Below, piece by piece: positions 12,810-27,452 of a DNA stretch of 64,000 nucleotides (the stretch's first letter is position 1; every line of letters starts with the position of its first letter). The position numbers and the translations under genes are program-made. The notes under the pieces are model-generated. The model saw only the letters and a program-made list of their open reading frames with translations, was not told where the DNA came from and made no database searches. The stretch spans positions 2,076,501 to 2,140,500 of the forward strand of contig NZ_AP025516.1 of assembly GCF_023169885.1 (NCBI RefSeq), given 5' to 3'. Source of the stretch: Desulfofustis limnaeus (GTDB taxonomy: Bacteria > Desulfobacterota > Desulfobulbia > Desulfobulbales > Desulfocapsaceae).

Positions 12810-13419
12810 GCTTTTTTCTCCTATGACCCCGATTTTGTTCATTTCGGGGTTATGTTCAATAGCCCGGGGAAAAGATTTTCTGGATCGTATGCGGCCTTAA
12901 CAGATTGTAACCGCGGCAAGTTTTCCCCATAGGCGCCACGCAGCATTTCATCGATATCCTCGACATAGCCAGGGAAGTTCAGGTGATTGCCTCCCGATGA
13001 GAAGGGTTTAAGCGCCGTATGCAGGTTGCGGGCCCAGGCGATATTGGCTTCCGAATCAGTCTGGACACTCCAATTCGCCTCGATGCCAACCAGGAATGGA
13101 TGTCGCCGATTATAGAACGCGGTTGCATCCTGTGCTACGCGAGCGGAAGCTCCACCGAGAAACCAGACATCGATTGAGGATTCGGCCGATGGTCGGTTGC
13201 GCGTGTACTCTTCGAGAACAGACATGCATTCATCGTCCAGTCGTTCGAGATAGATCGATTTCCAATAGTAGTACTTTCCGTCAGGATAGTCCTCGTCGAG
13301 CAATCGCTGAACGTCCTTCCACCCCATGTCGGCACTCAGATCAGCGATCGGTTCGCAAATCGTCCGCAACGGGGCGATAACCTCCTGGGCGTGCTCCGGT
13401 GAACCGCTATAGCAGCCTA

Positions 13420-14669
13420 GTATAAAGTTCTCTATATAACGTTACATTTGTTTGTCATCGTGTTACATTCCTTCTTGGGCTATAATCAACCAAGGAGGAG
13501 TGCAATGCGCAACCAGAAGCCGGATTTGGTTCTTGCCGACAGCGACCGGCAAGAACTCGACAAAATCAGCCGGAGCCGGACCGAGCCGGCAAGCCGTGTT
13601 CAGCGAGCCACGATACTTCTGATGTATGCCAGCGGAACCACCATTACGGCAATTACCAAGACGTTGGGCACCACCCGCCCGCTGGTGTATCGAACCGTCG
13701 ATAAAGCCTTGGCCTTTGGGCCGTTGGCCTCGCTTGACGATATGAAGCGTTCCGGCAGAAGTCGTGTCATCGATGACGCGGCGAAGAGCTGGGTTATTTC
13801 TTTGGCTTGCCAGCGACCGACCGAACGTGGCTATGCCGCCGAAACCTGGACCTACAGCAGTCTCGTCACGCATATCAGGACCCATGCCGACCGGAGCGGG
13901 CACCACTGCTTGAAGAAAGTGAGCAGGAGCAAGGTTCATGATATTCTGACCGAAGGAGACATTCGCCCACATAAAATCAGCTATTATCTGGAGCAGCGGG
14001 ACCCTCAGTTTGAGGAGAAAATGATCGACGTCCTCTGTGTCTACAAGGACGTGGAAATGATCAATCAGTCTCCTGACAGTACCCAGAATCGGGAATCAAC
14101 CACCGTGTCATACGACGAGAAACCGGGCATTCAAGCCATCAAAAATATTGCTGCCCAACTCCGACCGGTACCGGGAAAGCACTCGACCATCGGCCGTGAT
14201 TATGAATACAAACGCTTGGGCACCGTCTCCTTGCTCGGCGGTATTGATCTCCATACCGGCAGGGTTCATGCACTGGTCAAAGACCGCCATCGGAGTCGCG
14301 AGTTTGTTGAGTTTCTTGATCTGATTGATGGCAGGTACCCGGAAGACTGGGTAATCAGGATTGTTTTGGATAACCATTCTGCTCATGTGTCAAAAGAAAC
14401 GCAACGATATCTTCAGTCACGACCGAACCGGTTTCATTTTGTTTTCACACCGAAACATGGCTCCTGGCTCAACCTGATCGAATCGTTTTTCAGCAAGATT
14501 GCCCGATCCTTTCTCCGCCATATCCGCGTTGATTCAAAGCAAGAACTCGTGGAGCGTATTTACCAGGGGATCGAGGAAATCAACAAGGACCCCGTGGTCT
14601 TCCGGTGGCGGTATAAAATGGAAGAAATTGCCACCGCATAAACGTAATGTTATTTTGCGAACGAACTAC
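13420..14669 (+). mobile_element. IS630-family insertion sequence, complete
   Basis: A 1250-bp element bounded by TA dinucleotides (13418-13419 and 14670-14671), the target duplication typical of IS630/Tc1-mariner elements. The ends are imperfect 26-bp inverted repeats: GTATAAAGTTC..AACGTTAC at the left and GTAGTTCGTTC..AACATTAC read inward from the right, identical at 18 of 26 positions. It carries one intact transposase gene and lies antisense to the oxidase gene it interrupts. Confidence 0.93.
13505..14641 (+). CDS. IS630-family transposase
   Basis: A 378-residue transposase. The N-terminal third is a helix-turn-helix region (TTITAITKTLGTTRPLVYRT). The catalytic domain has the DDE triad: Asp in SYDEKPGI, Asp in IVLDNHSAH and Glu in SWLNLIESFFSK. 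The start at 13505 follows a strong AAGGAGGAG site. The gene ends 28 bp before the right terminus of the element and appears intact, so the element may still be mobile. Confidence 0.93.
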   Translation: MRNQKPDLVLADSDRQELDKISRSRTEPASRVQRATILLMYASGTTITAITKTLGTTRPLVYRTVDKALAFGPLASLDDMKRSGRSRVIDDAAKSWVISLACQRPTERGYAAETWTYSSLVTHIRTHADRSGHHCLKKVSRSKVHDILTEGDIRPHKISYYLEQRDPQFEEKMIDVLCVYKDVEMINQSPDSTQNRESTTVSYDEKPGIQAIKNIAAQLRPVPGKHSTIGRDYEYKRLGTVSLLGGIDLHTGRVHALVKDRHRSREFVEFLDLIDGRYPEDWVIRIVLDNHSAHVSKETQRYLQSRPNRFHFVFTPKHGSWLNLIESFFSKIARSFLRHIRVDSKQELVERIYQGIEEINKDPVVFRWRYKMEEIATA

Positions 14670-15518
14670 TAGCAGGATGACCACCGGTTTCCCCTGATGG
14701 TTTTTCGGAACCTCTGGTAGTGGGGGCCCGCTCCAGTAAACACCAAGCACCATCAGATCGTCAGGAGCAGCAGCCATGTACTTTTGACAGGCGGTCATAA
14801 CCTCCCGAGCATTTTCCATGGCATATATCGGCATGGAGATGGAAACCTGCCGTCCAATGGGGTGCAGCCTGAACTCGAACTGTGTTGCTACCCCGAAGTT
14901 TCCACCGCCGCCGCGCAAAGCCCAGAACAAATCGGGATGTTCATCCGCCGAAGTCCTGAGCATCTTACCGTCGGCAGTGACGATTTCTATGGCGTGCAGG
15001 TTGTCGATGGACAGCCCGTGCTTCCTCATCAGCCAGCCGGTACCTCCGTGCAGGGTCAAACCGGCAACTCCGGTCTCCGAAACCACGCCAACCGGCGCGG
15101 CTAGACCAAACGCGACCGTCTCGTGGTCGAGATCGCCAAGCCTGGCGCCGGCTTCGACCCGGGCAATCCGTGCATGAGGATCAACATGGACACTACGCAT
15201 CTGTGAAACATCGATAACCACACCGCCGTCATTCACGGACGCCCCTGAGACATTATGGCCACCGGCCCGAACGGAGAACAGCAGGCCGTGGTCGCGAACG
15301 AAATCGACAGAGGCCATAACATCGGCGGTACCATGACAGCGAACGATCATCGCTGGTTTTTTATCAATCGATCCGTTCCAAACCTTCCGCGCCACTTCAT
15401 ATTCAGGGCTTTCATTCAAGAGGAGAGACCCACGAAGCTTCCTGCTGAATTCATCGATCGTTTCCTGGTGTATGTGGATCGGATTTCCTCGTCGGTTTTT
15501 CAGTTCAAGGGTGCTCAT

Positions 15519-15923
15519 TATACACCTCTTTTTTGCTAGGTTTACTTTGCAGATCTGTGTGGAGTTTTTTTCAATGAGTCTTGCAGATCTGGGTGAATAT
15601 GGAAAGACTATAAGAGCGCCTGACGCTATATCAACCAGCACCCCTTGATGAATATGAATACCGCTGATTGTTCCCGATCATCCACCGATTTGAAACGGGG
15701 GTATATCCTTCAGCTATTCTTCCATTAAGGTGTTAGAAGTGAGTCGACGCACGGTCGTAAAGGAGAGCTCCCTAAACTCTTTTCCAACGATGAACGAACC
15801 AATCCACTGCCTCAAGACACTTGACCACGTGATGCTCCGCTGAAATCGTCTCATCCAGATGGATGAATGATCGACTGCGCAGGCGGCGGCCAACGGCTTG
15901 GAGGGTGGATTGCGTGCGCAGGT
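15519..15923. other. Gap between oxidase and hcp with coding remnant
   Basis: No intact gene. On the minus strand a frame from about 15930 to 15769 reads ..FIHLDETISAEHHVV.. then ..CLEAVDWFVHRWKRV and a stop. It has coding-like composition but no start and no recognised family. It begins exactly where the half repeat copy D stops matching the other repeats, so it is probably a gene fragment joined to, or inserted in, the repeat. Confidence 0.4.
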
Positions 15924-16042: not shown

Positions 16043-16145
16043 AGAAAACCTGGCGACGACAGGCTATCATCTCTCCAACAAGCAACGATGAGGCCACATT
16101 CCTCATAGCGGTTCAACCGAAAAAAAAATGAAAGGAGGTAGCTCC

Positions 16146-17780
16146 ATGTTTTGTAACCAGTGTGAACAGACTGCCAAGGGCATCGGATGTGAGAAAGTCG
16201 GTGTGTGCGGCAAGAGCGAAAACGTCGCCGGCTTGCAGGATCTTCTGACCCACGCCGTTCAGGGTCTGGCCATTGTCGCCACGGCCGCCCGCAAGGTGAA
16301 TGTCGCCGATCCGGCGGTCGATCAATTCATCGTCGAAGCGACCTTTGCCTGCCTGACCAACGTCGACTTCGACCCGGCCCGCTTCGAAACTTGGATCCGC
16401 AAGGCTGTCGAGCTGCGCAACGATCTCAGGACCCGAGCCGAAGCAGCCGGCGCCACCATCGACAGCACGGCCGCCGCCCTGACCTACCTCCCGGCCGTCG
16501 ACCGGGCCGGACTGGAAGCCCAAGGAGCCGCCCTCAACCTTATCCAGTCTCTGGATCCCAACGAAGATCTGCGCTCGCTCAAGCAGATCGCCCTGTACGG
16601 CCTGCGCGGCCTGGCCGCTTACACTGACCACGCCGCCATCCTGGGCAAGAAGGACGATGCGGTCTACGCCTTCATCGAACAGGCCCTGGCCGATCTGACC
16701 CGCACCGACCTCGGTCTCAACGACCTGATCGCCCTGGTCCTCAAATGCGGTGAAGTCAACCTCAAGGCCATGGAACTGCTCGATGCCGGCAACACCGGCA
16801 CCTATGGTCACCCGGTGCCGACCCCGGTACCGCTCGGTCACAAGGCCGGCAAGGCAATCCTCGTCTCCGGTCACGACCTGCGCGATCTACACCTGCTGCT
16901 CGAGCAGACCAAGGATAAGGGCATCCACGTTTACACCCATGGAGAAATGCTGCCCTGCCACGGCTATCCGGAATTGAAAAAATATCCGCACTTCTACGGC
17001 CATTACGGTACCGCCTGGCAGAACCAGCAGAAAGAGTTCGCCGAGTTCCCCGGCGCCATTCTGTTCACCACCAACTGCATCCAGAAACCGCGCGAATCCT
17101 ATCAGGACAACGTCTTTACCACCGGCCTGGTGGGTTGGCCCGGCCTCACCCATATCGGTGAGAACAAGGACTTCACGCCGGTGATCGAGCGGGCTCTGGC
17201 CCTGCCCGGTTTTCCGAGCGACGAGGAGCGCGGCGAGGTGCTGACCGGTTTTGCCCGCAACACCGTGCTCGGCGTCGCCGACAAGGTAATCGACGGCGTC
17301 AAGTCGGGCGCCATCAAGCATTTCTTCCTGGTCGGCGGCTGCGACGGCGCCAAGCCGGGCCGTAACTACTACACCGAGTTCGTCGAGCAGGTCCCCCAGG
17401 ACTGCATAGTGCTCACCCTGGCCTGCGGTAAGTTCCGCTTCTTCGACAAGAAACTCGGCGACATCGGCGGTATCCCGCGCCTTCTCGACGTCGGTCAATG
17501 CAACGATGCCTATTCGGCCATCCAGATCGCCGTTGCCCTGGCCAACGCCTTCAACTGCGGGGTCAACGACCTGCCGCTGTCGCTGGTCCTCAGCTGGTAC
17601 GAGCAGAAGGCAGTCATCATCCTGCTGACCCTGCTGCACCTGGGTATCAAGGATATCCGGCTCGGACCGTCCCTGCCGGCCTTCATCTCGCCCAACGTCC
17701 TCAACGTGCTGGTGGAAAACTTCTCCATCAAGCCGATCGCCGCGACGCCGCAGGAAGACCTGCAGGCTATCCTGGCCTGA
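16146..17780 (+). CDS. hcp: Hybrid-cluster protein (hydroxylamine reductase)
   Basis: A 544-residue hybrid-cluster protein of the usual length for the family. It handles nitric oxide/hydroxylamine stress and in anaerobes typically acts as an NO reductase or nitrosylase. The N-terminal cubane motif is Cys3-x2-Cys6-x8-Cys15-x5-Cys21, the class I spacing of strict anaerobes. Hybrid-cluster ligand regions are visible further on (for example HGEMLPCHGYPEL, TTNCIQKP, GGCDGAKPGR, LACGKFRF). ATG 16146 has AAAGGAGGT 7 nt before it. Its promoter carries an HcpR-like site. It is monocistronic with a hairpin after the stop. Confidence 0.96.
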   Translation: MFCNQCEQTAKGIGCEKVGVCGKSENVAGLQDLLTHAVQGLAIVATAARKVNVADPAVDQFIVEATFACLTNVDFDPARFETWIRKAVELRNDLRTRAEAAGATIDSTAAALTYLPAVDRAGLEAQGAALNLIQSLDPNEDLRSLKQIALYGLRGLAAYTDHAAILGKKDDAVYAFIEQALADLTRTDLGLNDLIALVLKCGEVNLKAMELLDAGNTGTYGHPVPTPVPLGHKAGKAILVSGHDLRDLHLLLEQTKDKGIHVYTHGEMLPCHGYPELKKYPHFYGHYGTAWQNQQKEFAEFPGAILFTTNCIQKPRESYQDNVFTTGLVGWPGLTHIGENKDFTPVIERALALPGFPSDEERGEVLTGFARNTVLGVADKVIDGVKSGAIKHFFLVGGCDGAKPGRNYYTEFVEQVPQDCIVLTLACGKFRFFDKKLGDIGGIPRLLDVGQCNDAYSAIQIAVALANAFNCGVNDLPLSLVLSWYEQKAVIILLTLLHLGIKDIRLGPSLPAFISPNVLNVLVENFSIKPIAATPQEDLQAILA

Positions 17781-17795
17781 TCGCTCCGCATCACC

Positions 17796-17827
17796 CCCCC
17801 GGCCATGCCAGCCTGCATGGCCGGGGG
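17796..17827 (+). terminator. Hairpin after hcp
   Basis: A 13-bp perfect stem (CCCCCGGCCATGC with its complement) and 6-nt loop begin 15 bp after the hcp stop. There is no T-tract, so it may be an RNA-stabilising or factor-dependent terminator rather than an intrinsic one. Confidence 0.5.
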
Positions 17828-17931: not shown

Positions 17932-20445
17932 ATGAACCTCGTCCGGCAGTGGCGCTACTGGAGCCGGTTCCTGTTTTTTCCCGGCCAGCTGCTGCGGGAC
18001 AAATACCGATCGTTTCGCGAACTGCTGCAGCACGACCGTAAATGTCTCGAACTGCTGAGCGACCTGGAGGCGATTCACTACACCGGGACCCCGGTCGACT
18101 GGTCTCGGGTCACTCGCCTGGTGGTCGCTCTGCGCTGGTCGATGAGCAACCTGGTCCGATCGCTGGACGCCATGCATCCGGACCGCTACCTGCCCCTGAT
18201 CGATCGCTTCCAGCAGCTTGAACAACAGCTGCAGCAGGCGGTCTCCCTGCCCGCCGAAGATACCGCGCCACCCTACGTCATTACGCTTGCCGAGGCCGCT
18301 TCCGCTGCCCCGTTGGCCGGCGGCAAAGCCCATCAGCTCGGTGTCCTGCTGAACCGGACGGAGCTGATCCAACCACAAGGCTTCGTCATCACCGCCACGG
18401 CCGGCCGCCTCCTGCTCGCTACCAATCGATTGCGCGAACCCATCGACGAACTGCTCGGCGAGGTCGACATTACCGACACTCCACGCCTGCACTCCATCTC
18501 CCGGGAGATCGTCGACTTGATCACCGGCGCGGAGATCCCGCCACCGGTTCTCGATGCGGTCAGCAGCCGGCTCGACCAGTTTCAACGGCCGAGCCATACC
18601 ACCTCATGGGCAGTACGCAGCAGCGCTGTGGGGGAAGATGGCGTGTTCTCCTTCGCCGGTCAATACCAGAGCCTGCTCTCGGTCACCGACGCTGATCTCC
18701 TCGATGCCTACAAAACGGTGCTGGCCGGGAAATATCGGCCGGAAGCCATTGCCTACCGAATCCGCTGCGGCCTCGCCGACCAGGAGACCCCGATGGCGGC
18801 ACTGATCATGGAAATGGTAGAGGCCCGGGCCGGAGGCGTTATTTACAGCCGGGATCCGGAACAAAGAGATGTCCCGGACGATCCGGCTCCCATCGCCGTC
18901 TATGCCGTAGCCGGTCTGGGTGCCTCCCTGGTTGACGGCAGCGCCGCCCCCGAGATCCATCATTTTATACGGCAACCTGACGGAACCCTCGACACGCTCG
19001 ACACGACGACTGCGAGCCGAAAAGCCGACTCCGGATCGCCGCTGCTCGATCCGGCCACGGCACGCCGATTGGCCGGGTGGGGCCAGAGCCTGGAAAACCT
19101 GCTGGGCTCACCACAGGATATTGAATGGTGCCAGGACGAAACGGGCCGCTGCCTGCTTCTGCAGTGCCGCCCCCTGCTCGACCGGCAGGAGACGACCGAC
19201 GCCACCGGTACCGACACCCCTCCCGTCCCGGTCCAGCCCCTGCTGATCGGCGGCCTGAGCGCCGCACCCGGCGTTGGTATCGGTGTCGTGTACCTTGCCG
19301 AAACCGGAGATCAGCTGCAGGAGACCCCACCAGGATCGGTGCTCGTCCTCACCCATCTCCCGCCGACTTTGGCCGCCATCATCGACCGGTTGCAGGCGGT
19401 GGTCTGCGAAGGGGGCAGCCGGGCCAGCCATTTTGCCACGATCGCCCGCGAGTTCGGCCTGCCGGTCATCACCGGCCTGCAGGGGGCCACGACCGCTCTA
19501 CGCCAGGGTGACATGGTCACCGTCGATGGTTGGTCGGCCATCGTCTATCCCGGCCGACTCGACACGCTGGCGGAGCGTTACCCGCAGCGGACAACGATCC
19601 TGGCCACCCCCTTCGCCGAACGGATGGGTGCGGTCATCGATCTGGTCTCCCCGCTCCACCTGGTGGATCCAACCGCATCTAATTTCAGGCCGCAGCACTG
19701 CCGGAGCATGCACGATGTGATCCGCTATTCTCACGAAAAAGGCATGACCGAGATGTTTTCGCTGGTCGGCCGCAGCGGCCGGGAGTTGTCGGGAGCCAAG
19801 CGGGTCGACGGCGAATTGCCGTTCACCCTGTCGATCATCGATCTGGGCGGCGGCTTGACGATGGATGCTGCCCACCGTCGCACGATCACCCCGAAGCAGT
19901 TTGCCTCCCCTCTGCTGCGCGCCTGCTGGCGGGGATTGAGCCACCCGGACGTCACCTGGCACGAGGGCCTGCTCTACCTGGACTGGCAGGAGGCCGACCG
20001 GATGGCCGGCGGCATCGTCAACCTGAAATCGGCCAAACTGGGCAGCTATGCGGTGGTGGCCCGCGACTACCTGCATCTGATGCTGCGCTTCGGCTACCAT
20101 TTCGCCATCATCGACTCGCTGGCCGGTGACGAACCGGAAGCCAACTACCTGACCTTTCGCTTCAAGGGCGGCGGCGGCAGCTACGACAACCGTCTGCGCC
20201 GGCTGCGGCTGGTCAGTGACGTGCTGACCTGGGCCGGATTTTCCACCCACGCCCACGGCGACTTGCTCGATGCCCGCTTCGATCGCCGGAGCGCCGCCGA
20301 GACGATCAGCCGACTGGTTGCCGTCAGCATCATTCAGGGCAAATGCCAGCTGCTGGACATGAAAATGGATTCGGACGACTCCATCGCCGCGCTGGTCGAG
20401 TCCATGAAAAAACCCTTAATTGCCGTCATCGACGGATCGCCCTAA
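17932..20445 (+). CDS. PEP-synthase-like phosphotransferase with novel C-terminus
   Basis: An 837-residue protein. After a helical N-terminus (1-115) comes an ATP-grasp/PPDK N-terminal domain (about 118-415: LAGGKAHQLGVL, SWAVRSSAVGEDG, DIEWCQDETGRCLLLQCRP). A swivelling phosphohistidine domain follows (about 438-560: GLSAAPGVGIG, then EGGSRASHFATIAREFGLP with His500). These domains pass phosphate from ATP through a histidine. The usual PEP/pyruvate-binding TIM barrel is missing; residues about 565-837 are a different region (LPFTLSIIDLGGGLT, FRFKGGGGSYDNR, HAHGDLLDARFD). The acceptor is therefore unknown. It starts 110 bp after the hcp hairpin, with AGGGGTGACGGCAG upstream, and is followed 16 bp later by a phosphatase gene. 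Confidence 0.8.
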   Translation: MNLVRQWRYWSRFLFFPGQLLRDKYRSFRELLQHDRKCLELLSDLEAIHYTGTPVDWSRVTRLVVALRWSMSNLVRSLDAMHPDRYLPLIDRFQQLEQQLQQAVSLPAEDTAPPYVITLAEAASAAPLAGGKAHQLGVLLNRTELIQPQGFVITATAGRLLLATNRLREPIDELLGEVDITDTPRLHSISREIVDLITGAEIPPPVLDAVSSRLDQFQRPSHTTSWAVRSSAVGEDGVFSFAGQYQSLLSVTDADLLDAYKTVLAGKYRPEAIAYRIRCGLADQETPMAALIMEMVEARAGGVIYSRDPEQRDVPDDPAPIAVYAVAGLGASLVDGSAAPEIHHFIRQPDGTLDTLDTTTASRKADSGSPLLDPATARRLAGWGQSLENLLGSPQDIEWCQDETGRCLLLQCRPLLDRQETTDATGTDTPPVPVQPLLIGGLSAAPGVGIGVVYLAETGDQLQETPPGSVLVLTHLPPTLAAIIDRLQAVVCEGGSRASHFATIAREFGLPVITGLQGATTALRQGDMVTVDGWSAIVYPGRLDTLAERYPQRTTILATPFAERMGAVIDLVSPLHLVDPTASNFRPQHCRSMHDVIRYSHEKGMTEMFSLVGRSGRELSGAKRVDGELPFTLSIIDLGGGLTMDAAHRRTITPKQFASPLLRACWRGLSHPDVTWHEGLLYLDWQEADRMAGGIVNLKSAKLGSYAVVARDYLHLMLRFGYHFAIIDSLAGDEPEANYLTFRFKGGGGSYDNRLRRLRLVSDVLTWAGFSTHAHGDLLDARFDRRSAAETISRLVAVSIIQGKCQLLDMKMDSDDSIAALVESMKKPLIAVIDGSP

Positions 20446-20461
20446 TCCTGGAATGGTCGCC

Positions 20462-21469
20462 ATGAAACACGCTCACTACCGGGTCGACTGGGTCACCGAC
20501 AATCTCGCCGTCGGTCAGGCCCCCATGTCCTACGATGCCCTCGACGCCATCCGGGCTCTGGGGATCGGCGCCGTACTCAACCTCTGCGCGGAATTCTGCG
20601 ACCTGCACTGGATCGAGGAAAAAGCCGGCTTCGAAGTTTATTACCTGCCCATCCCCGACGAAGAAGCCCCGGACCTGGCGGAGTTGGAAAAAGCCCTCGA
20701 CTGGCTCGACGAGTGTCTCTATCTCGGCAAGAAAGTGCTGGTCCACTGCCGGTTCGGCATCGGCCGCACCGGCACCGTCGTCAACGCCTACCTGCTGCGC
20801 AAAGGACTCGGCCACCGGCTCGCCGGCAAGACCTTGAAAGGGCTCAAGTCCCAGCCGGCCAACTTCAACCAGTGGTGGTTCATCAGGAAATACGGGAAAA
20901 AAGAGAAACCGTTGAAGATCAAGCAACCGTCCCTGAACAACCAACACCTGGTGGACCTGTTCCCGTTTTTTTCCGATCACCAGCAGCTTCTCAGCCGTAT
21001 CGACGAAGCCGCGCCAGGTGACGAGAGCCGTCCCTGCTGTGGCCTGAACCACGACCGCTGCTGTTGCACCATACTGAGTTTGAGCTTTATCGAAACGATC
21101 TTCCTCAGCCACCTGGTCAACACCACACTGCCGCGCCAGGCCCGCCTGGACCTGATCGATCGGGCCATCGCCACACCGCTGACCCGCTGCCCGCTCAGCG
21201 TCGACGGCCGCTGCCTGGTCCCGGCCGGTCGGCCGGTGGCCTGCCGGTTATTCGATCTGGAGACGGACCGACGCCAGGCCATCGAGACACCGCTGCAAGA
21301 TGGGCTGAAACGGTTGTCCGGCGACGTTTATTTCGCCTTCACCTCTCACTTCCCGCATGACCCGCCCCTCAGTTTCCCGTTGCCCCACGCGGTCTCCGGA
21401 AAATACGTGCAAACCCTGTTTCACCGGCTTTTACGAGACCAAGCACAAGCCCCTGGAAGATCGGCATAG
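20462..21469 (+). CDS. Dual-specificity phosphatase fused to Cys-rich domain
   Basis: A 335-residue fusion. Residues about 8-150 are a dual-specificity/tyrosine-phosphatase domain with signature VHCRFGIGRTG (Cys96, Arg102) and a general-acid candidate in PIPDEEAPDL. The C-terminal half has clustered cysteines (CCGLNHDRCCC, RCPLSVDGRCLV, GRPVACRLF) resembling the RP-x2-C layout of YkgJ-type metal-chelating domains. I prefer ATG 20462, which has GGA at a workable distance; an ATG three codons earlier is possible. The 16-bp gap from the PEP-synthase-like gene suggests cotranscription and opposing phosphoryl-transfer roles (inference). Confidence 0.8.
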   Translation: MKHAHYRVDWVTDNLAVGQAPMSYDALDAIRALGIGAVLNLCAEFCDLHWIEEKAGFEVYYLPIPDEEAPDLAELEKALDWLDECLYLGKKVLVHCRFGIGRTGTVVNAYLLRKGLGHRLAGKTLKGLKSQPANFNQWWFIRKYGKKEKPLKIKQPSLNNQHLVDLFPFFSDHQQLLSRIDEAAPGDESRPCCGLNHDRCCCTILSLSFIETIFLSHLVNTTLPRQARLDLIDRAIATPLTRCPLSVDGRCLVPAGRPVACRLFDLETDRRQAIETPLQDGLKRLSGDVYFAFTSHFPHDPPLSFPLPHAVSGKYVQTLFHRLLRDQAQAPGRSA

Positions 21470-21881: not shown

Positions 21882-22652
21882 ATGAAACAGATCAGAAAAA
21901 TCATCCAGATCGACGAAGAATTGTGCAACGGCTGTGGGCAGTGCGTCCCCGACTGCGCCGAAGGCTCCCTGCAAATCATCGACGGCAAGGCCCGCCTGGT
22001 GGCCGACAAACTCTGTGACGGCCTCGGGGCCTGTCTCGGCTCCTGTCCCACCGGCGCCCTGAAGATCATCGAGCGGGAAGCGGACGACTTCGACGAAAAA
22101 GCGGTTGAGGAATTTTTGGCCAATCAGAAGAAACAGGAACAGGCCGCCAAAGCCGAGCCCATGGCCTGCGGCTGCGCCTCCACCCATATCCAGAGTTTCC
22201 GACCGGCAGCCGCCCCCACGCCTTGCCAGGCGGCCAACCTCCCCACGGCCATGCCGGCCGCGTCAGCTCAGGATTCGCAGTTGCGCCACTGGCCGGTGCA
22301 GATCCGCCTGGTGCCGCCGCATGCACCGTTTCTGAAGGGTGCCGACCTGCTGGTCGCGGCCGACTGCACCGCGGTTGCCGCCGCCAACTTTCAGCAGGAC
22401 TACCTGGCCAACAAGGTGGTCATGATGGGATGTCCGAAATTCGACGACGCCGAAGCCTATATCCAGCGTTTCACTGAAATTATCGACACCTGCGGTCTGA
22501 AACGGATCACCGTGCTGATCATGGAGGTGCCCTGCTGCTCGGCCATGACGGTCATCATCAAACGCGCCCTGGAACGGGCATCGGCAACGGTGCCGGTGGA
22601 GCAGATCGTCATCTCCGCCCGCGGCAAGGAATTGCAGCGCATCTCCTGGTAA
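21882..22652 (+). CDS. frdX: FrdX-type ferredoxin with C-terminal domain
   Basis: A 256-residue protein with an N-terminal two-cluster ferredoxin segment. The first motif is complete (Cys15, 18, 21, 25: CNGCGQCVPDC). The second reads CDGLGACLGSCP, with Leu48 in place of the second cysteine, so that cluster may be [3Fe-4S] or altered. A Cys-containing linker (ACGCAS) leads to a C-terminal domain (about 135-256) with conserved-looking GCPKFDD and EVPCCSAMT. FrdX is coregulated with hcp in HcpR regulons and probably supplies electrons to Hcp. GAGGA precedes the ATG. It is followed by a strong bidirectional hairpin. Confidence 0.86.
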   Translation: MKQIRKIIQIDEELCNGCGQCVPDCAEGSLQIIDGKARLVADKLCDGLGACLGSCPTGALKIIEREADDFDEKAVEEFLANQKKQEQAAKAEPMACGCASTHIQSFRPAAAPTPCQAANLPTAMPAASAQDSQLRHWPVQIRLVPPHAPFLKGADLLVAADCTAVAAANFQQDYLANKVVMMGCPKFDDAEAYIQRFTEIIDTCGLKRITVLIMEVPCCSAMTVIIKRALERASATVPVEQIVISARGKELQRISW

Positions 22653-22732: not shown

Positions 22733-23401
22733 TCAGGTGGTTGATCTGGACGCTTTCTTCCAGGTGATAAGCAACCGTCCCTCCACCTCCATCACCTCGG
22801 CGCCGATGGAAACGAACAGGTGAAAGAGCGGACGGCCGAAATAGAACAGCTCCTCGCCCAGGCTCAGGTCGAACCGCTGCACCGCCTGGGTTCGATAACC
22901 AATCTCGTCGTTGGCCCGCTGCTCCAGTTCCGCCGCCCGATTTCCCGGGCCGTCCTGTTGCAACTGCAGCATATCTGGACAGGGAAAAAGCTGTTCATGT
23001 TCGACGATGAGCGGCCGCAGCGGGTCATCGTCAGCCAGCAGGTCGAGACGTTCCAGGGTGTCGGTTTCGATCAGCGCCTCCACCTCTTCTGTATCCCAAC
23101 AGCGAAGGGCCTTGCAGGCCTGCGGCCGCATGTCGTAGATGGTGCAGCCCCTCTGTTCCGGATCAAAGTAATAGCAGTTCCACTCTCGACCGACGCCGCT
23201 GATCTTCACCAACTCCCTTTTCACCGGCTGGATGGTGTCGGAAAGCGGGTTGTAGGCCAGCTCTCCTTTCCTGATGGTGATCAACTGTGCCAGCGGCAGA
23301 TGACCTTCCAGGACCAGCCGCCGATCCTCCGAATGGAGGGCCGGACCGCCGCTGACACAGCAATTGCCGCAGCGTTGACATTCCAGTTGGTTGCTTTCCA
23401 T
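22733..23401 (-). CDS. YkgJ-family Cys-cluster protein
   Basis: About 222 residues. The N-terminal Cys motif CQRCGNCCVSGGPA and the later GCTIYDMRPQACKALRC give the C-x2-C-x2-CC ... C-x7-RP-x2-C pattern of the YkgJ family, predicted zinc- or iron-chelating proteins of unknown function. The C-terminal half is acidic and helical. I use the ATG at 23401, with AGGAG 11 nt upstream; an in-frame GTG at 23434 would add 11 residues. It follows the CoA-transferase-GNAT gene by under 50 bp and is last in that operon. Confidence 0.82.
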   Translation of the reverse strand: MESNQLECQRCGNCCVSGGPALHSEDRRLVLEGHLPLAQLITIRKGELAYNPLSDTIQPVKRELVKISGVGREWNCYYFDPEQRGCTIYDMRPQACKALRCWDTEEVEALIETDTLERLDLLADDDPLRPLIVEHEQLFPCPDMLQLQQDGPGNRAAELEQRANDEIGYRTQAVQRFDLSLGEELFYFGRPLFHLFVSIGAEVMEVEGRLLITWKKASRSTT

Positions 23402-23446
23402 GCGCGTCGAGATCTCCTGGCGGTCAGATGACACCCGGCCAGGGCG

Positions 23447-25327
23447 TCAAAAATCCATGATGTAACTGTACACACCCTCTTCGATGGTGCTGGTCACATT
23501 CAGACCGGAGTGGTTGAAGATCGCCTGCATCCGGTTGTTGTTGCGCAGGACCTCAGCGGTGAACCCGGAGATGCCGTTGGCCTTGGCGATGTTGACCAGG
23601 TGCTTGAAGACGAAGGTACCGAGCCCCTTGTTCTGCCATTTGTCACGGACCACAAAAGCCACCTCGGCGCGATTGCTGCGCTCGTCGAGATAGTAGCGGC
23701 CGACGGCGATGATCTCGTCGCCGTAGGCCTCCGGCAATACGCCGACGATGGCCACGTCCTTGCGGTGATCGATGTAGACGAAATTCTGGATCTGCCGCTG
23801 GCCGAACCGCTCCTGATGACTCATGAACCGGTAGTAGAGGGTCTCGCGTGACAGATTGTAGAGCAGGTCGCGCATCCGCGGCTCATCGGTGGGGTGGATC
23901 GGCCGGAAATTGATCTCGGTGCCGTCCTTGAGCAGGAACTTGGTGCGCATGAAGCTCTGGGAAGCGACTACGAATTTGCCCTCCACATCGGCAAACTCCT
24001 CGCGGATGTATTTGGCTTCGATGGCCTCTTTGAGCAGTTGTGGCCGGGCCTCGGGGTGGGCAATGGAAATCAGGGCCAGGGTGCGATCCTGGACCGACTT
24101 GCCCCGCAGATAGGCGCTGCCGTACTCGGTCACTACATAATGGACGGTGCCCCGCGAGATCACCACCCCGGCGCCGGGACTGAGCCGTGACACGATCCGC
24201 GACCGCCCTTCGCTGTCGGTCGACGGCATGACGATGATCGGCCGGCCGCCGCTGGAGCGGGCGGCGCCACGATTGAAATCCACCTGGCCACCGATGCCCG
24301 AATAGAACTTGCCGTTCTCCGAATCGGAACTGACCTGCCCGGTGAGATCGATCTGCAGCGCCATATTGATGGTGACCATGTTGTTGTGCTTGCCGATCAC
24401 GTTGGCGTCGTTCACATATTGGGTGGGCCGGAAGGAAAAGAGCGGATTGTCGTCCAGATAGTCATAGAGCCGGCGGCTGCCCATGGCAAAACTGCCGATC
24501 ACCTTGGCTCGATCCACCGTCTTGCGCCGGCCGGTCACCACCCCGCTCTCGATCAACTCCATGACCTCGTCGGAGATCAGCTCGGTATGAATGCCGAGGT
24601 CCGCCTTCTCTTTCAGATACGGCGCCACCGCCAGCGGGATGCGCCCGAACCCGGGAACGGTACCGAGACCGAACTCGATGGTGGCCCCGTCGGGCACGAG
24701 GGCGGCCACCAGTTGCGCGATGGTTTTGGTCACCTCCGGCACCGAATCGCGCTTCCGCTCGATCAGCGGCACATCGACCGGCACCAGGATATCCAGGTCG
24801 TAGACGTCAACCAGGCTGTCGCCGCGGGTCCACGGCATCTGCGGGTTCACCTGGGCGATCACCAAAGAGGCGTTTTCGGCGGCGCTCTTGACAATGTCCA
24901 CCGAGATGCCGAGGCTCATCTTGCCCCGGCTGTCCGGCGGCGTCACCTGGATCAGCGCCACATCCAGCGGCAGCTGGCCGGATTTGAGCAGGGCCGGGAT
25001 GTCGTACATGAGGATCGGCGTGTAGTCCCCTCGCCCTTCCTGGTACAGCGAACGGACGTTGCCGCCGATGAAAAAGGAATTGACCTTGAAGGTCTCGGCA
25101 TACTGACGGTCGATATAGGGGGCCTCACCCTTGGTCAACAGCTCGACAATCTCCACGTCGGCCAGGTTGCGGGCGTTCTTCACCAGCGCTTCCACCAAGA
25201 CCACCGGTTCGCCGCAGCCGGTCCCGAGAAACACGCGATTGCCGGATTTCACATGGGCCAGCGCCTTTTGCGGCGTCATGATCATGTCCCGGTATTTTTC
25301 CTGCCAGGCGCTATCGTATTCAACCAT
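23447..25327 (-). CDS. CoA-transferase/hydrolase fused to GNAT acetyltransferase
   Basis: A 626-residue fusion. Residues about 1-440 are an acetyl-CoA hydrolase/4-hydroxybutyrate CoA-transferase-type domain (FLGTGCGEPVVLVEAL, FGLGTVPG, and EYGSAYLRGKSVQDR carrying the probable catalytic Glu). Residues about 455-626 are a GNAT N-acetyltransferase with the acetyl-CoA loop VVRDKWQNKGLGTFVF. The fusion suggests CoA-ester turnover tied to protein acetylation; that link is inference. It follows the ADP-forming synthetase by 28 bp and precedes the YkgJ-like gene. Confidence 0.9.
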   Translation of the reverse strand: MVEYDSAWQEKYRDMIMTPQKALAHVKSGNRVFLGTGCGEPVVLVEALVKNARNLADVEIVELLTKGEAPYIDRQYAETFKVNSFFIGGNVRSLYQEGRGDYTPILMYDIPALLKSGQLPLDVALIQVTPPDSRGKMSLGISVDIVKSAAENASLVIAQVNPQMPWTRGDSLVDVYDLDILVPVDVPLIERKRDSVPEVTKTIAQLVAALVPDGATIEFGLGTVPGFGRIPLAVAPYLKEKADLGIHTELISDEVMELIESGVVTGRRKTVDRAKVIGSFAMGSRRLYDYLDDNPLFSFRPTQYVNDANVIGKHNNMVTINMALQIDLTGQVSSDSENGKFYSGIGGQVDFNRGAARSSGGRPIIVMPSTDSEGRSRIVSRLSPGAGVVISRGTVHYVVTEYGSAYLRGKSVQDRTLALISIAHPEARPQLLKEAIEAKYIREEFADVEGKFVVASQSFMRTKFLLKDGTEINFRPIHPTDEPRMRDLLYNLSRETLYYRFMSHQERFGQRQIQNFVYIDHRKDVAIVGVLPEAYGDEIIAVGRYYLDERSNRAEVAFVVRDKWQNKGLGTFVFKHLVNIAKANGISGFTAEVLRNNNRMQAIFNHSGLNVTSTIEEGVYSYIMDF

Positions 25328-25355: not shown

Positions 25356-27452
25356 TCAATCTTTGGTCAGCGTCATATGCACGTCGGCGACGATCGGTTC
25401 GGTGCCGATGTCGCCGACAATAAACGGGTTGATGTCCAACTCGGTGATCTGCGGAAAATCGGTGGTCAACTGACTGATCCGCTGCAGCCCCACGGCAATG
25501 GCGTTGATATCCACGCCCTGCTGGCCGCGCCGCCCCTCGAGCATGGCGTAGGAGCGGGTGGACATGAGCATCTGCACCGCTTCGGCCTCGGTGATCGGCG
25601 CCAGATGAAAGGCCACGTCCTTGAGCACCTCGACAAAGATGCCGCCGAGACCAAACATCAGCATCGGCCCGAACTGCGGGTCGCGGTTCATGCCGAGGAT
25701 CACCTCGAGACCGCGCGGGATCATCTGCTCCACATAGATCCCGTCGATCCGGGCATCCGGGGCCCGCTTGCGGATCTTCAGCATCATCAGGTCGTAGGCA
25801 TCTTCGATCGCCTCGGCATGGCTCAGATCCAGCTGGATGCCACCCATGTCGCTCTTGTGGACGATGTTGGGCGAGACGATCTTCAGCGCCACCGGATACC
25901 CGATGCGCTCGGCGATCTCCACCGCCTCCTCCTGGGTGATGGCCATGGCCCCCTGGGGAATCTTGAAACCGTAGGCGCTGAGGATATCCTTGCCCTTGAC
26001 CTCGCCGACCATCAACCGGTTGGTCCGCAACCGCCGGGTAATGATCCGCTCCACCCGGCGGCGGTTCACCCGAAAGTGGGTGATCTGCCGGGGCGGCCGG
26101 TTCTTCCACAGCGAGTAATGGTACATGGCTCGCAATGCGGCCACCGCCCGCTCCGGCGAGCCGTAGTGGGGCAAGCCGGCGGCGCACAGATGCTTGCGGC
26201 CGGGCAATACGTCCTCGCCGCCCATGAACGAGGCCACCACCGGCTTCGATCCATCGATCGCCGAGGCGATGGCCAGGGCCGTCTCGGCCGGCTGAGTCAT
26301 GGTCTGCGGCGTCATGATGACCAGGATGGCGTCCACCGACGGATCCTGCTGAGCCGCCTCGATGGCGGCGGCATAGCGCTCCGGCACCGCATCGCCGAGC
26401 ACGTCGATGGGATTGGTGATGGAGGACTCGCGCGGCAGTTTCTCGCGCAGGAAGGTGATCGTCCGGTTTTCCAGGATCGCCACCTGCATACCCGCCTTTT
26501 CCACCGCGTCGGCGGCGATGGTGCCCGGTCCGCCGGCGTTGGTGACGATCAACACCCGATTGCCGGTGGGCAGGGGCTGCAGGGCAAGGGCCGCGGCATA
26601 GTCGAACAGCGCTTCGAAGGAATCGGCCCGGACCACGCCGGAACGCTTGAAAGCAGCGCCGTAGGCCGAATCGGTAGCGCTCAGCACCCCGGTGTGTGAG
26701 GCCGCCGCCCGGCGTCCGGTGGTGGTGGTGCCGGCCTTGAGGATGATCACCGGCTTGACCGAGGCTGCCTCCTCGGCGGCCTTGACAAAGGCGTCGCCGG
26801 CGCTGATGTCCTCCAGATAGCCGATGATGACCTTGGTCTTTTCGTCCTTGGCCAGCCAGGACAACAGATCGATCTCGTTGATATCGGCCTTGTTGCCGAT
26901 ACTGATCATCTTGGCCACGCCGAGATGACGGGAGCTGCAGAGATCAAGCATGGCGGCGCAGATGGCGCCGGACTGGGAGAATATGGAGATTGAACCGGGC
27001 TCGGGATAACGGCCGATGAAGGAGGTGTTCAGAGCGGCTTCGGTATTGATGATACCCATGCAGTTCGGGCCGAGCAGGCGAACGGCCCGGCGCCGGCAGA
27101 TATCCACCATCTTTTTCTCGATCTCAAGCCCCTCGTTTCCCATCTCCCGGAATCCGGAAGAGATGACCACCACCCCCTTGGCCCCAGCGTCAATGGACTC
27201 TTTCACCGCGCTCAAGGCCGCTTCCTTGGGCACGACGACCACCGCCAGGTCGATCTCCCGGTCAAGCGCATCAAGATTCGGGTAACAACGACGGCCGAGC
27301 AACTCGTCGGTGGTCGGATTGATGGGGAAAATCTCACCGGGAAACCCGGCGTTGATCAGATTGGCCAACAGATCGTGACCGACCTTGCCGGGAGTGCGGG
27401 AGGCCCCGACCACCGCAACCGATCGGGGGGTAAAAAACACGTCGAGATTCAT
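25356..27452 (-). CDS. ADP-forming acyl-CoA synthetase
   Basis: A 698-residue single-chain acetate/acyl-CoA ligase (NDP-forming) that couples acyl-CoA to ATP formation, or the reverse. In order it has a CoA-binding domain (VAVVGASRTPGKVG), a ligase domain with the phosphorylatable histidine (AAASHTGVLS), and a C-terminal ATP-grasp domain (VALKIVSPNIVHKSDMGG, ELDINPF). The length suits the fused alpha-beta form. GGAG precedes the ATG. It lies between the AcuB-like CBS gene and the CoA-transferase-GNAT gene. Confidence 0.93.
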   Translation of the reverse strand: MNLDVFFTPRSVAVVGASRTPGKVGHDLLANLINAGFPGEIFPINPTTDELLGRRCYPNLDALDREIDLAVVVVPKEAALSAVKESIDAGAKGVVVISSGFREMGNEGLEIEKKMVDICRRRAVRLLGPNCMGIINTEAALNTSFIGRYPEPGSISIFSQSGAICAAMLDLCSSRHLGVAKMISIGNKADINEIDLLSWLAKDEKTKVIIGYLEDISAGDAFVKAAEEAASVKPVIILKAGTTTTGRRAAASHTGVLSATDSAYGAAFKRSGVVRADSFEALFDYAAALALQPLPTGNRVLIVTNAGGPGTIAADAVEKAGMQVAILENRTITFLREKLPRESSITNPIDVLGDAVPERYAAAIEAAQQDPSVDAILVIMTPQTMTQPAETALAIASAIDGSKPVVASFMGGEDVLPGRKHLCAAGLPHYGSPERAVAALRAMYHYSLWKNRPPRQITHFRVNRRRVERIITRRLRTNRLMVGEVKGKDILSAYGFKIPQGAMAITQEEAVEIAERIGYPVALKIVSPNIVHKSDMGGIQLDLSHAEAIEDAYDLMMLKIRKRAPDARIDGIYVEQMIPRGLEVILGMNRDPQFGPMLMFGLGGIFVEVLKDVAFHLAPITEAEAVQMLMSTRSYAMLEGRRGQQGVDINAIAVGLQRISQLTTDFPQITELDINPFIVGDIGTEPIVADVHMTLTKD

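Follow-up and report, generated by a model that had tools for sequence, protein, structure and literature searches.

A PEP-synthase-like phosphotransferase and its partner phosphatase in sulfate-reducing bacteria are associated with a TauE-type permease and two-component sensor cassette

What a phosphotransferase built like phosphoenolpyruvate (PEP) synthase might do without the PEP/pyruvate domain, and in the company of a phosphatase, is the question raised by two adjacent genes of Desulfofustis limnaeus, which we examined in a stretch of 64,000 nucleotides of its genome (contig NZ_AP025516.1, positions 2,076,501 to 2,140,500; hereafter the window). The upstream gene, here called K, encodes the PEP-synthase-like protein, and the downstream gene, P, encodes a predicted dual-specificity phosphatase fused to a Cys-rich half. 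An earlier note on this locus had seen in the two genes an uncharacterised reversible phosphoryl-transfer system. A reversible phosphoryl-transfer system is still the best reading, whereas the word uncharacterised no longer holds in full, the equivalent genes of Desulfovibrio having a published phenotype (Korte et al., 2014; PMC4001038). Comparison of related loci gives good support for membership of K and P in a sensor and permease module, and we propose, with slightly less than even confidence, that in sulfate-reducing bacteria the two proteins transfer phosphoryl groups in opposite directions within an anion-transport module that is under two-component control.

Judged from gene order, phylogeny and a natural fusion, the K-P pair is genuinely conserved. 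Homologues of K, many of them full-length, are present in 114 of 117 relatives, and of the 64 P matches in these related genomes, 52 immediately follow a K gene. When named Desulfobacterota loci were retrieved through P alone (80 loci, the best 80 of 268 relatives), 79 had sequence before P, and K immediately preceded it in 73 of these; names from the Desulfobulbales, Desulfobacterales, Desulfovibrionales and Syntrophobacterales are among them. Across the phylum, 23 of 297 sampled genomes contain K matches above 320 bits and all 23 also contain P, a check that is partly circular, the K profile having been built from P-linked Ks. The phylogenetic tree unites the P-linked Ks in one clade (70/70, support 0.95), with 28 other Ks outside it, and in one genome the two proteins are naturally fused into one chain, about 1253 residues long (locus L215, 5974-9789). 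The check on co-occurrence of the pair that had been suggested in the earlier note has thus been run, and K and P are conserved together. A phosphatase also stands beside K in a second, separate branch of the K family (loci L147 and L148), in which K is longer, with a C-terminal extension, and the dual-specificity phosphatase gene directly upstream is unfused and without the Cys domain.

The N-terminal two thirds of K are clearly PEP-synthase-like, with a match at an E-value of 2.5e-65, and the positions of the domains are given in Table 1. Within the ATP-grasp domain, Ser230, Glu235, Glu398, Gln411 and Arg413 are invariant in 98 of 98 homologues, an alignment that includes both P-linked and P-less Ks. 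The same is true of the phospho-His residue, His500 (19429-19431), which sits in GSRASHFATIARE. K resembles PEP synthase (pyruvate, water dikinase) and pyruvate phosphate dikinase (PPDK) in having ATP-grasp and phospho-His domains with conserved catalytic residues, but differs from them in lacking the PEP/pyruvate barrel, in place of which it has an unrelated C-terminal domain, and in carrying about 126 extra residues at the N-terminus. It falls below the equivalog cut-offs of the curated PEP synthase and PPDK models (221 versus 598 bits, and 209.8 versus 739.75 bits). Rifampin phosphotransferase (RPH) likewise has the ATP-grasp and phospho-His modules, joined to an acceptor domain of another kind; in K the order is ATP-grasp, His and C-terminal domain, and its score against the full RPH model is 148 bits, where the equivalog cut-off is 999.

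Beyond residue 533, a search with the window protein gave no Pfam match. We found PF02896, the PEP/pyruvate barrel, in none of 68 homologous K C-termini at E-values up to 1, and no Pfam family recurred among these 68. Searching the PDB sequences with the K C-terminus returned no match (best E 0.43), and the profile-profile comparison that the earlier note had advised, performed with hhalign against ten PF02896 proteins of relatives, gave a probability of 0.1% and did not recover the known PEP/pyruvate domain. A short LDLGGGL/LDVGGDK-like likeness to the barrel family in the hhalign output was taken as chance at this probability. Conservation indicates that the last ~270 residues of K are a real domain, in which Asp595, Arg598, His601, Glu602, His723, Arg757 and Asp809 are invariant in all 98 homologues. 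The AlphaFold2 model of residues 552-837 (pLDDT 81.9, pTM 0.77) predicts a mixed alpha/beta sheet domain and not a (beta/alpha)8 barrel, with low confidence for its first 70 residues, and none of its structure matches stands out (Foldseek best E 5.4e-3, to 2plg; VIA-align best Z 6.3, to coproporphyrinogen oxidase). Since the conserved 590-602 segment is among the residues modelled with low confidence, the fold is not proven to be new and may yet be a known one. The earlier note's description of K, as a protein with the ATP-grasp and phosphohistidine (His500) domains and without the usual PEP/pyruvate domain, is borne out by these comparisons.

P may begin at either of two ATG codons, 20453 or 20462, which lie 7 and 16 nt past the stop codon of K; the N-terminus of the closest homologue favours 20462, in agreement with the 16-bp gap reported in the earlier note. 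Residues of P are numbered here from 20453 (Cys99/Arg105), and the same two residues become Cys96/Arg102 when counted from 20462. The N-terminal half is predicted, by its fold and its HCxxGxxR loop, to be a dual-specificity phosphatase. It matches PF22785, PF22784 and PF00782 (the last with 51.6 bits, for a cut-off of 33.5), its general acid Asp69 is kept in 68 of 69 homologues, and its Foldseek matches are the dual-specificity phosphatases ShufPTP, Tk-PTP and DUSP10 (E about 6e-8 to 1e-7), from which P differs by an additional C-terminal Cys domain outside the matched region. Family-level profile matches in both directions identify this additional region as a divergent YkgJ/CxxCxxCC domain: PF03692 is matched by 38 of the 69 members of the P family (best E 1.2e-4), and the P profile matches free-standing proteins at ~1e-25, including two confirmed members of PF03692. 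The likeness extends to the conserved cysteines and the RPxxCR motif, whereas fusion to a phosphatase sets the P domain apart from the YkgJ family, and the window P is too diverged to match PF03692 alone (no match at E up to 1). The fusion of a Cys96/Arg102 phosphatase to a YkgJ-like region, as the earlier note had put it, therefore stands. The six conserved cysteines of the YkgJ-like half are the ground on which P may be linked to a metal. Besides the catalytic cysteine, Cys45 in the phosphatase half (20585-20587) is kept without exception in the 69 homologues, and a redox disulfide is conceivable. A free-standing YkgJ/CxxCxxCC protein (22733-23434, minus strand; PF03692 E 5.4e-9) is encoded 1.3 kb downstream of P.

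Many K-P loci contain, in order, genes for a TauE/TSUP permease, a small membrane protein, a PhnD-like binding protein, a histidine kinase, a stand-alone receiver, K and P. Of the 44 K-P loci with complete flanks, 23 have TauE and 28 have PhnD, and neither was found in 20 control stretches, which were random 18-kb stretches from the same or related genomes put through the same search. Histidine kinases and response regulators occurred in 12 and 11 of the 20 controls, and for these two only direct adjacency to K was counted as evidence; a receiver gene directly adjoins K in 24 of 54 K-P loci. Paralogues of K without P have similar neighbours, since TauE and a histidine kinase with a receiver were present in 21 of 21 loci examined and the receiver gene adjoins K in 19 of them. 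The receivers of the cassette look canonical, and a dedicated downstream metabolic enzyme was not seen to recur among the loci inspected. In several genomes, P-less K paralogues also occur as tandem neighbours (loci L149, L163, L168 and L169).

The genome from which the window comes carries its own second, P-less copy of K, and has the cassette in two places. The K-P genes are at 2.094 Mb, and the genes for TauE, the membrane protein, PhnD, the histidine kinase and the response regulator lie together at about 4.053-4.062 Mb, about 1.96 Mb apart from the pair. The TauE and small membrane proteins of this genome share 82% and 65% identity with their counterparts in a close relative whose cassette is in one piece (L064). 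With the remaining cassette genes some 2 Mb away, we consider that the cassette has been split in this genome and that K-P has been kept as a unit.

A link to a phenotype comes from the 'nitrate cluster' of Desulfovibrio, DVU0251-DVU0245 or Dde_0597-0605 (Korte et al., 2014; PMC4001038). The set and order of genes in this cluster, namely TauE, membrane protein, PhnD/PtxB, histidine kinase, receiver, PPDK/PEP-utilizer and dual-specificity phosphatase, are those of the Desulfovibrionales cassette loci, and the window's genome differs in having the cassette in two places with K-P beside hcp. Insertions in DVU0246 (PPDK/PEP-utilizer), DVU0247 (receiver), DVU0250 or DVU0251 (TauE) allow D. vulgaris to grow in 100 mM nitrate, growth of the resistant cluster mutants in nitrite is not improved, and a mutant in the phosphatase gene DVU0245 stays nitrate-sensitive (PMC4001038). 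Since mutants in DVU0246 and DVU0251 have the same nitrate phenotype, the K gene appears to be required, like the permease gene, for one and the same trait. The authors suggested that nitrate leaks in through a thiosulfate transporter and, beyond this, gave no mechanism for K or P (PMC4001038). The cluster is not discussed in the main text of later genetics papers on D. vulgaris and D. alaskensis, and a survey of sulfate transporters describes TauE-type proteins as abundant and their function as unpredictable.

We therefore set out our proposal that K and P act as opposing arms of the transport module as follows. A periplasmic PhnD-like binding protein and the membrane histidine kinase would sense a solute and signal to the stand-alone receiver, and the sensor kinase and receiver would control K or act jointly with it. 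The ATP-grasp domain of K would phosphorylate its own His500 from ATP in the manner of PEP synthase, and the C-terminal domain would then transfer the phosphoryl group, most probably to one of the components of the TauE permease and membrane-protein unit or to a small factor by which this unit is activated. P would take the phosphoryl group off, and its Cys cluster may couple dephosphorylation to metal or redox state. In D. limnaeus, with K-P beside hcp and the other cassette genes ~1.96 Mb off, this action would be in trans. The catalytic residues of the nucleotide and His domains of K and the phosphatase loop of P are all intact, and the proposal draws on these together with the domain anatomy, the co-conservation, the cassette context and the natural fusion observed here and on the published mutant phenotypes. 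We infer which way the phosphoryl group flows, what accepts it and what the Cys cluster does. A more specific form, a new principle of control in which a PEP-synthase-type dikinase carries out the response to a two-component sensor, its unrecognised C-terminal domain phosphorylates the unit of the TauE-family anion permease and a Cys-gated phosphatase reverses this, to make an oxyanion-transport switch of Desulfobacterota, is offered only tentatively.

Several points weigh against this proposal. Mere nearness of histidine kinase and response regulator genes to K-P is weak evidence because such genes are common in the controls, and in the window K-P adjoins neither a receiver nor a permease gene. 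The equivalence of DVU0246 and DVU0245 to K and P is inferred from the order, the annotated domains and the size of the genes. The D. alaskensis phosphatase mutant (Dde_0605) gained fitness in nitrate (+2.08), in conflict with the result for DVU0245 (PMC4001038). Finally, where a transposon insertion lies upstream of K, polar effects are possible; the phenotype of the K mutant itself is hard to ascribe to polarity because, provided that the cluster runs from DVU0251 to DVU0245 as it does in the relatives inspected, only the phosphatase gene lies beyond K.

The main rival is a metabolic dikinase that acts on an imported solute. The C-terminal domain of K would bind a small molecule, perhaps the one imported by TauE, and phosphorylate it from His500, and P would hydrolyse the product, with transport driven by trapping and not by signalling. 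Characterised enzymes with ATP-grasp and phospho-His domains mostly phosphorylate small molecules, and rifampin phosphotransferase and phenylphosphate synthase phosphorylate their own acceptors from the phospho-His. The invariant polar residues in the C-terminal domain of K resemble an active site, and the link to TauE would fit substrate import. However, K genes are tied to receivers and histidine kinases, most closely in the paralogue loci, disruption of the receiver gene has the same phenotype as disruption of the K gene, and the recurrent downstream enzyme that would be dedicated to such a product is missing from the cassettes inspected, which leaves this explanation unlikely, if still a serious contender.

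The frequent adjacency of the receiver gene to K, seen in 19 of 21 loci of the paralogues and in 24 of the 54 K-P loci, together with the canonical appearance of the receivers, would also fit K as an unconventional kinase of the neighbouring receiver, in which case His500 would give its phosphoryl group to the aspartate of the receiver and P would set the relay back. We regard this as improbable, in that the cassette already has conventional histidine kinases to serve the receiver and the window has no receiver gene adjoining K-P. Moreover, Cys-dependent phosphatases of the dual-specificity fold usually act on phospho-Ser, phospho-Thr and phospho-Tyr or on small molecules and not on phospho-Asp.

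In the window, K-P is bordered by hcp and by the gene of a two-[4Fe-4S] protein that fits frdX; in the genus-mate Desulfofustis glycolicus (L063) the pair has neighbours equal to these in size. This setting, and the effect of the related Desulfovibrio cluster on nitrate sensitivity, could suggest a nitrosative-stress system formed by K-P with hcp and frdX. The lodging of the pair between these genes, to which the earlier note had drawn attention, is true of the window, but among the loci inspected it was found only here and in D. glycolicus, and the natural setting elsewhere is the TauE, PhnD, histidine kinase and receiver cassette; on this ground we reject hcp and frdX as general functional partners of K-P. 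A strong hairpin without a T-run stands between hcp and K (Table 1), which suggests that K-P is not simply co-transcribed with hcp, and the resistance described for Desulfovibrio concerns nitrate and expressly not nitrite. A nitrosative-stress system is accordingly very unlikely. Least of all can K be a PEP synthase or PPDK with a diverged C-terminal barrel, an idea that its PEP-synthase-like N-terminal two thirds might invite and that is reduced to a negligible chance by the consistent failure to detect PF02896 in the C-termini, the predicted non-barrel fold, scores far under the curated cut-offs and a separate PF02896 protein of 914 residues in the window's genome that is, judged from its size, a PPDK.

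Table 1. Positions of K, P and associated features (window coordinates unless a locus is named)
Feature	Position	Strand	Basis or remark
K, PEP-synthase-like phosphotransferase, 837 aa	17932..20445	+	open reading frame, Pfam and curated-model matches
K residues 1-126, N-terminal extension	17932..18309	+	without Pfam family; conserved among aligned full-length homologues
K residues 127-424, PPDK_N ATP-grasp domain	18310..19203	+	PF01326, E 1.2e-57
K residues 466-533, PEP-utilizers phospho-His (swivelling) domain	19327..19530	+	PF00391, E 2e-18
K residues 565-837, C-terminal domain	19624..20442	+	no recurrent Pfam family and no PDB-sequence match; PF02896 not supported by hhalign
P, predicted dual-specificity phosphatase with YkgJ-like Cys domain, 338 aa (335 aa from ATG 20462)	20453..21469	+	open reading frame, Pfam, Foldseek
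P phosphatase loop, His98-Cys99-...-Arg105-Thr106	20744..20770	+	Cys99 and Arg105 invariant (69/69)
P conserved Cys196, 203, 204, 246, 254 and 264 with RPxxCR motif	21038..21244	+	YkgJ-like (PF03692)
hcp	16128-17780		upstream flank of K
RNA hairpin in the hcp-K interval, stem of 13 bp	17796..17827	+	-35.5 kcal/mol for 80 nt, z -2.1
256-aa two-[4Fe-4S] protein, fits frdX	21882-22652		downstream flank of P
Separate K branch	L147 3571-7005 and 6851-7429; also L148	-	K with extension and unfused phosphatase gene

Further from the pair, the window contains an IS630-like transposase gene of the DDE_3 type (13448-14641, plus strand) between two fragments on the opposite strand (12839-13369 and 14580-15641), one matching BBE and one FAD_binding_4, as if the insertion had split a single gene for a berberine-bridge-type oxidoreductase. 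On the other side, two neighbouring minus-strand genes appear, judged from sequence alone, to encode an acetyl-CoA hydrolase-like protein whose C-terminal part resembles an acetyltransferase (23447-25327) and a protein resembling ADP-forming acyl-CoA synthetases (25356-27452).

The proteins related to K form a large PEP-synthase-like family, often with several members per genome in sulfate reducers, that was known only by its PPDK and PEP-utilizer domains and is now tied to TauE-type permeases and two-component sensors. The C-terminus of K is a probable phosphoryl-acceptor domain that is described by no Pfam family. The proposal that K and P are opposing arms of a transport module would supply a concrete, testable mechanism for a published and unexplained nitrate-resistance locus, and in this way bears on the use of nitrate to control oil-field souring.

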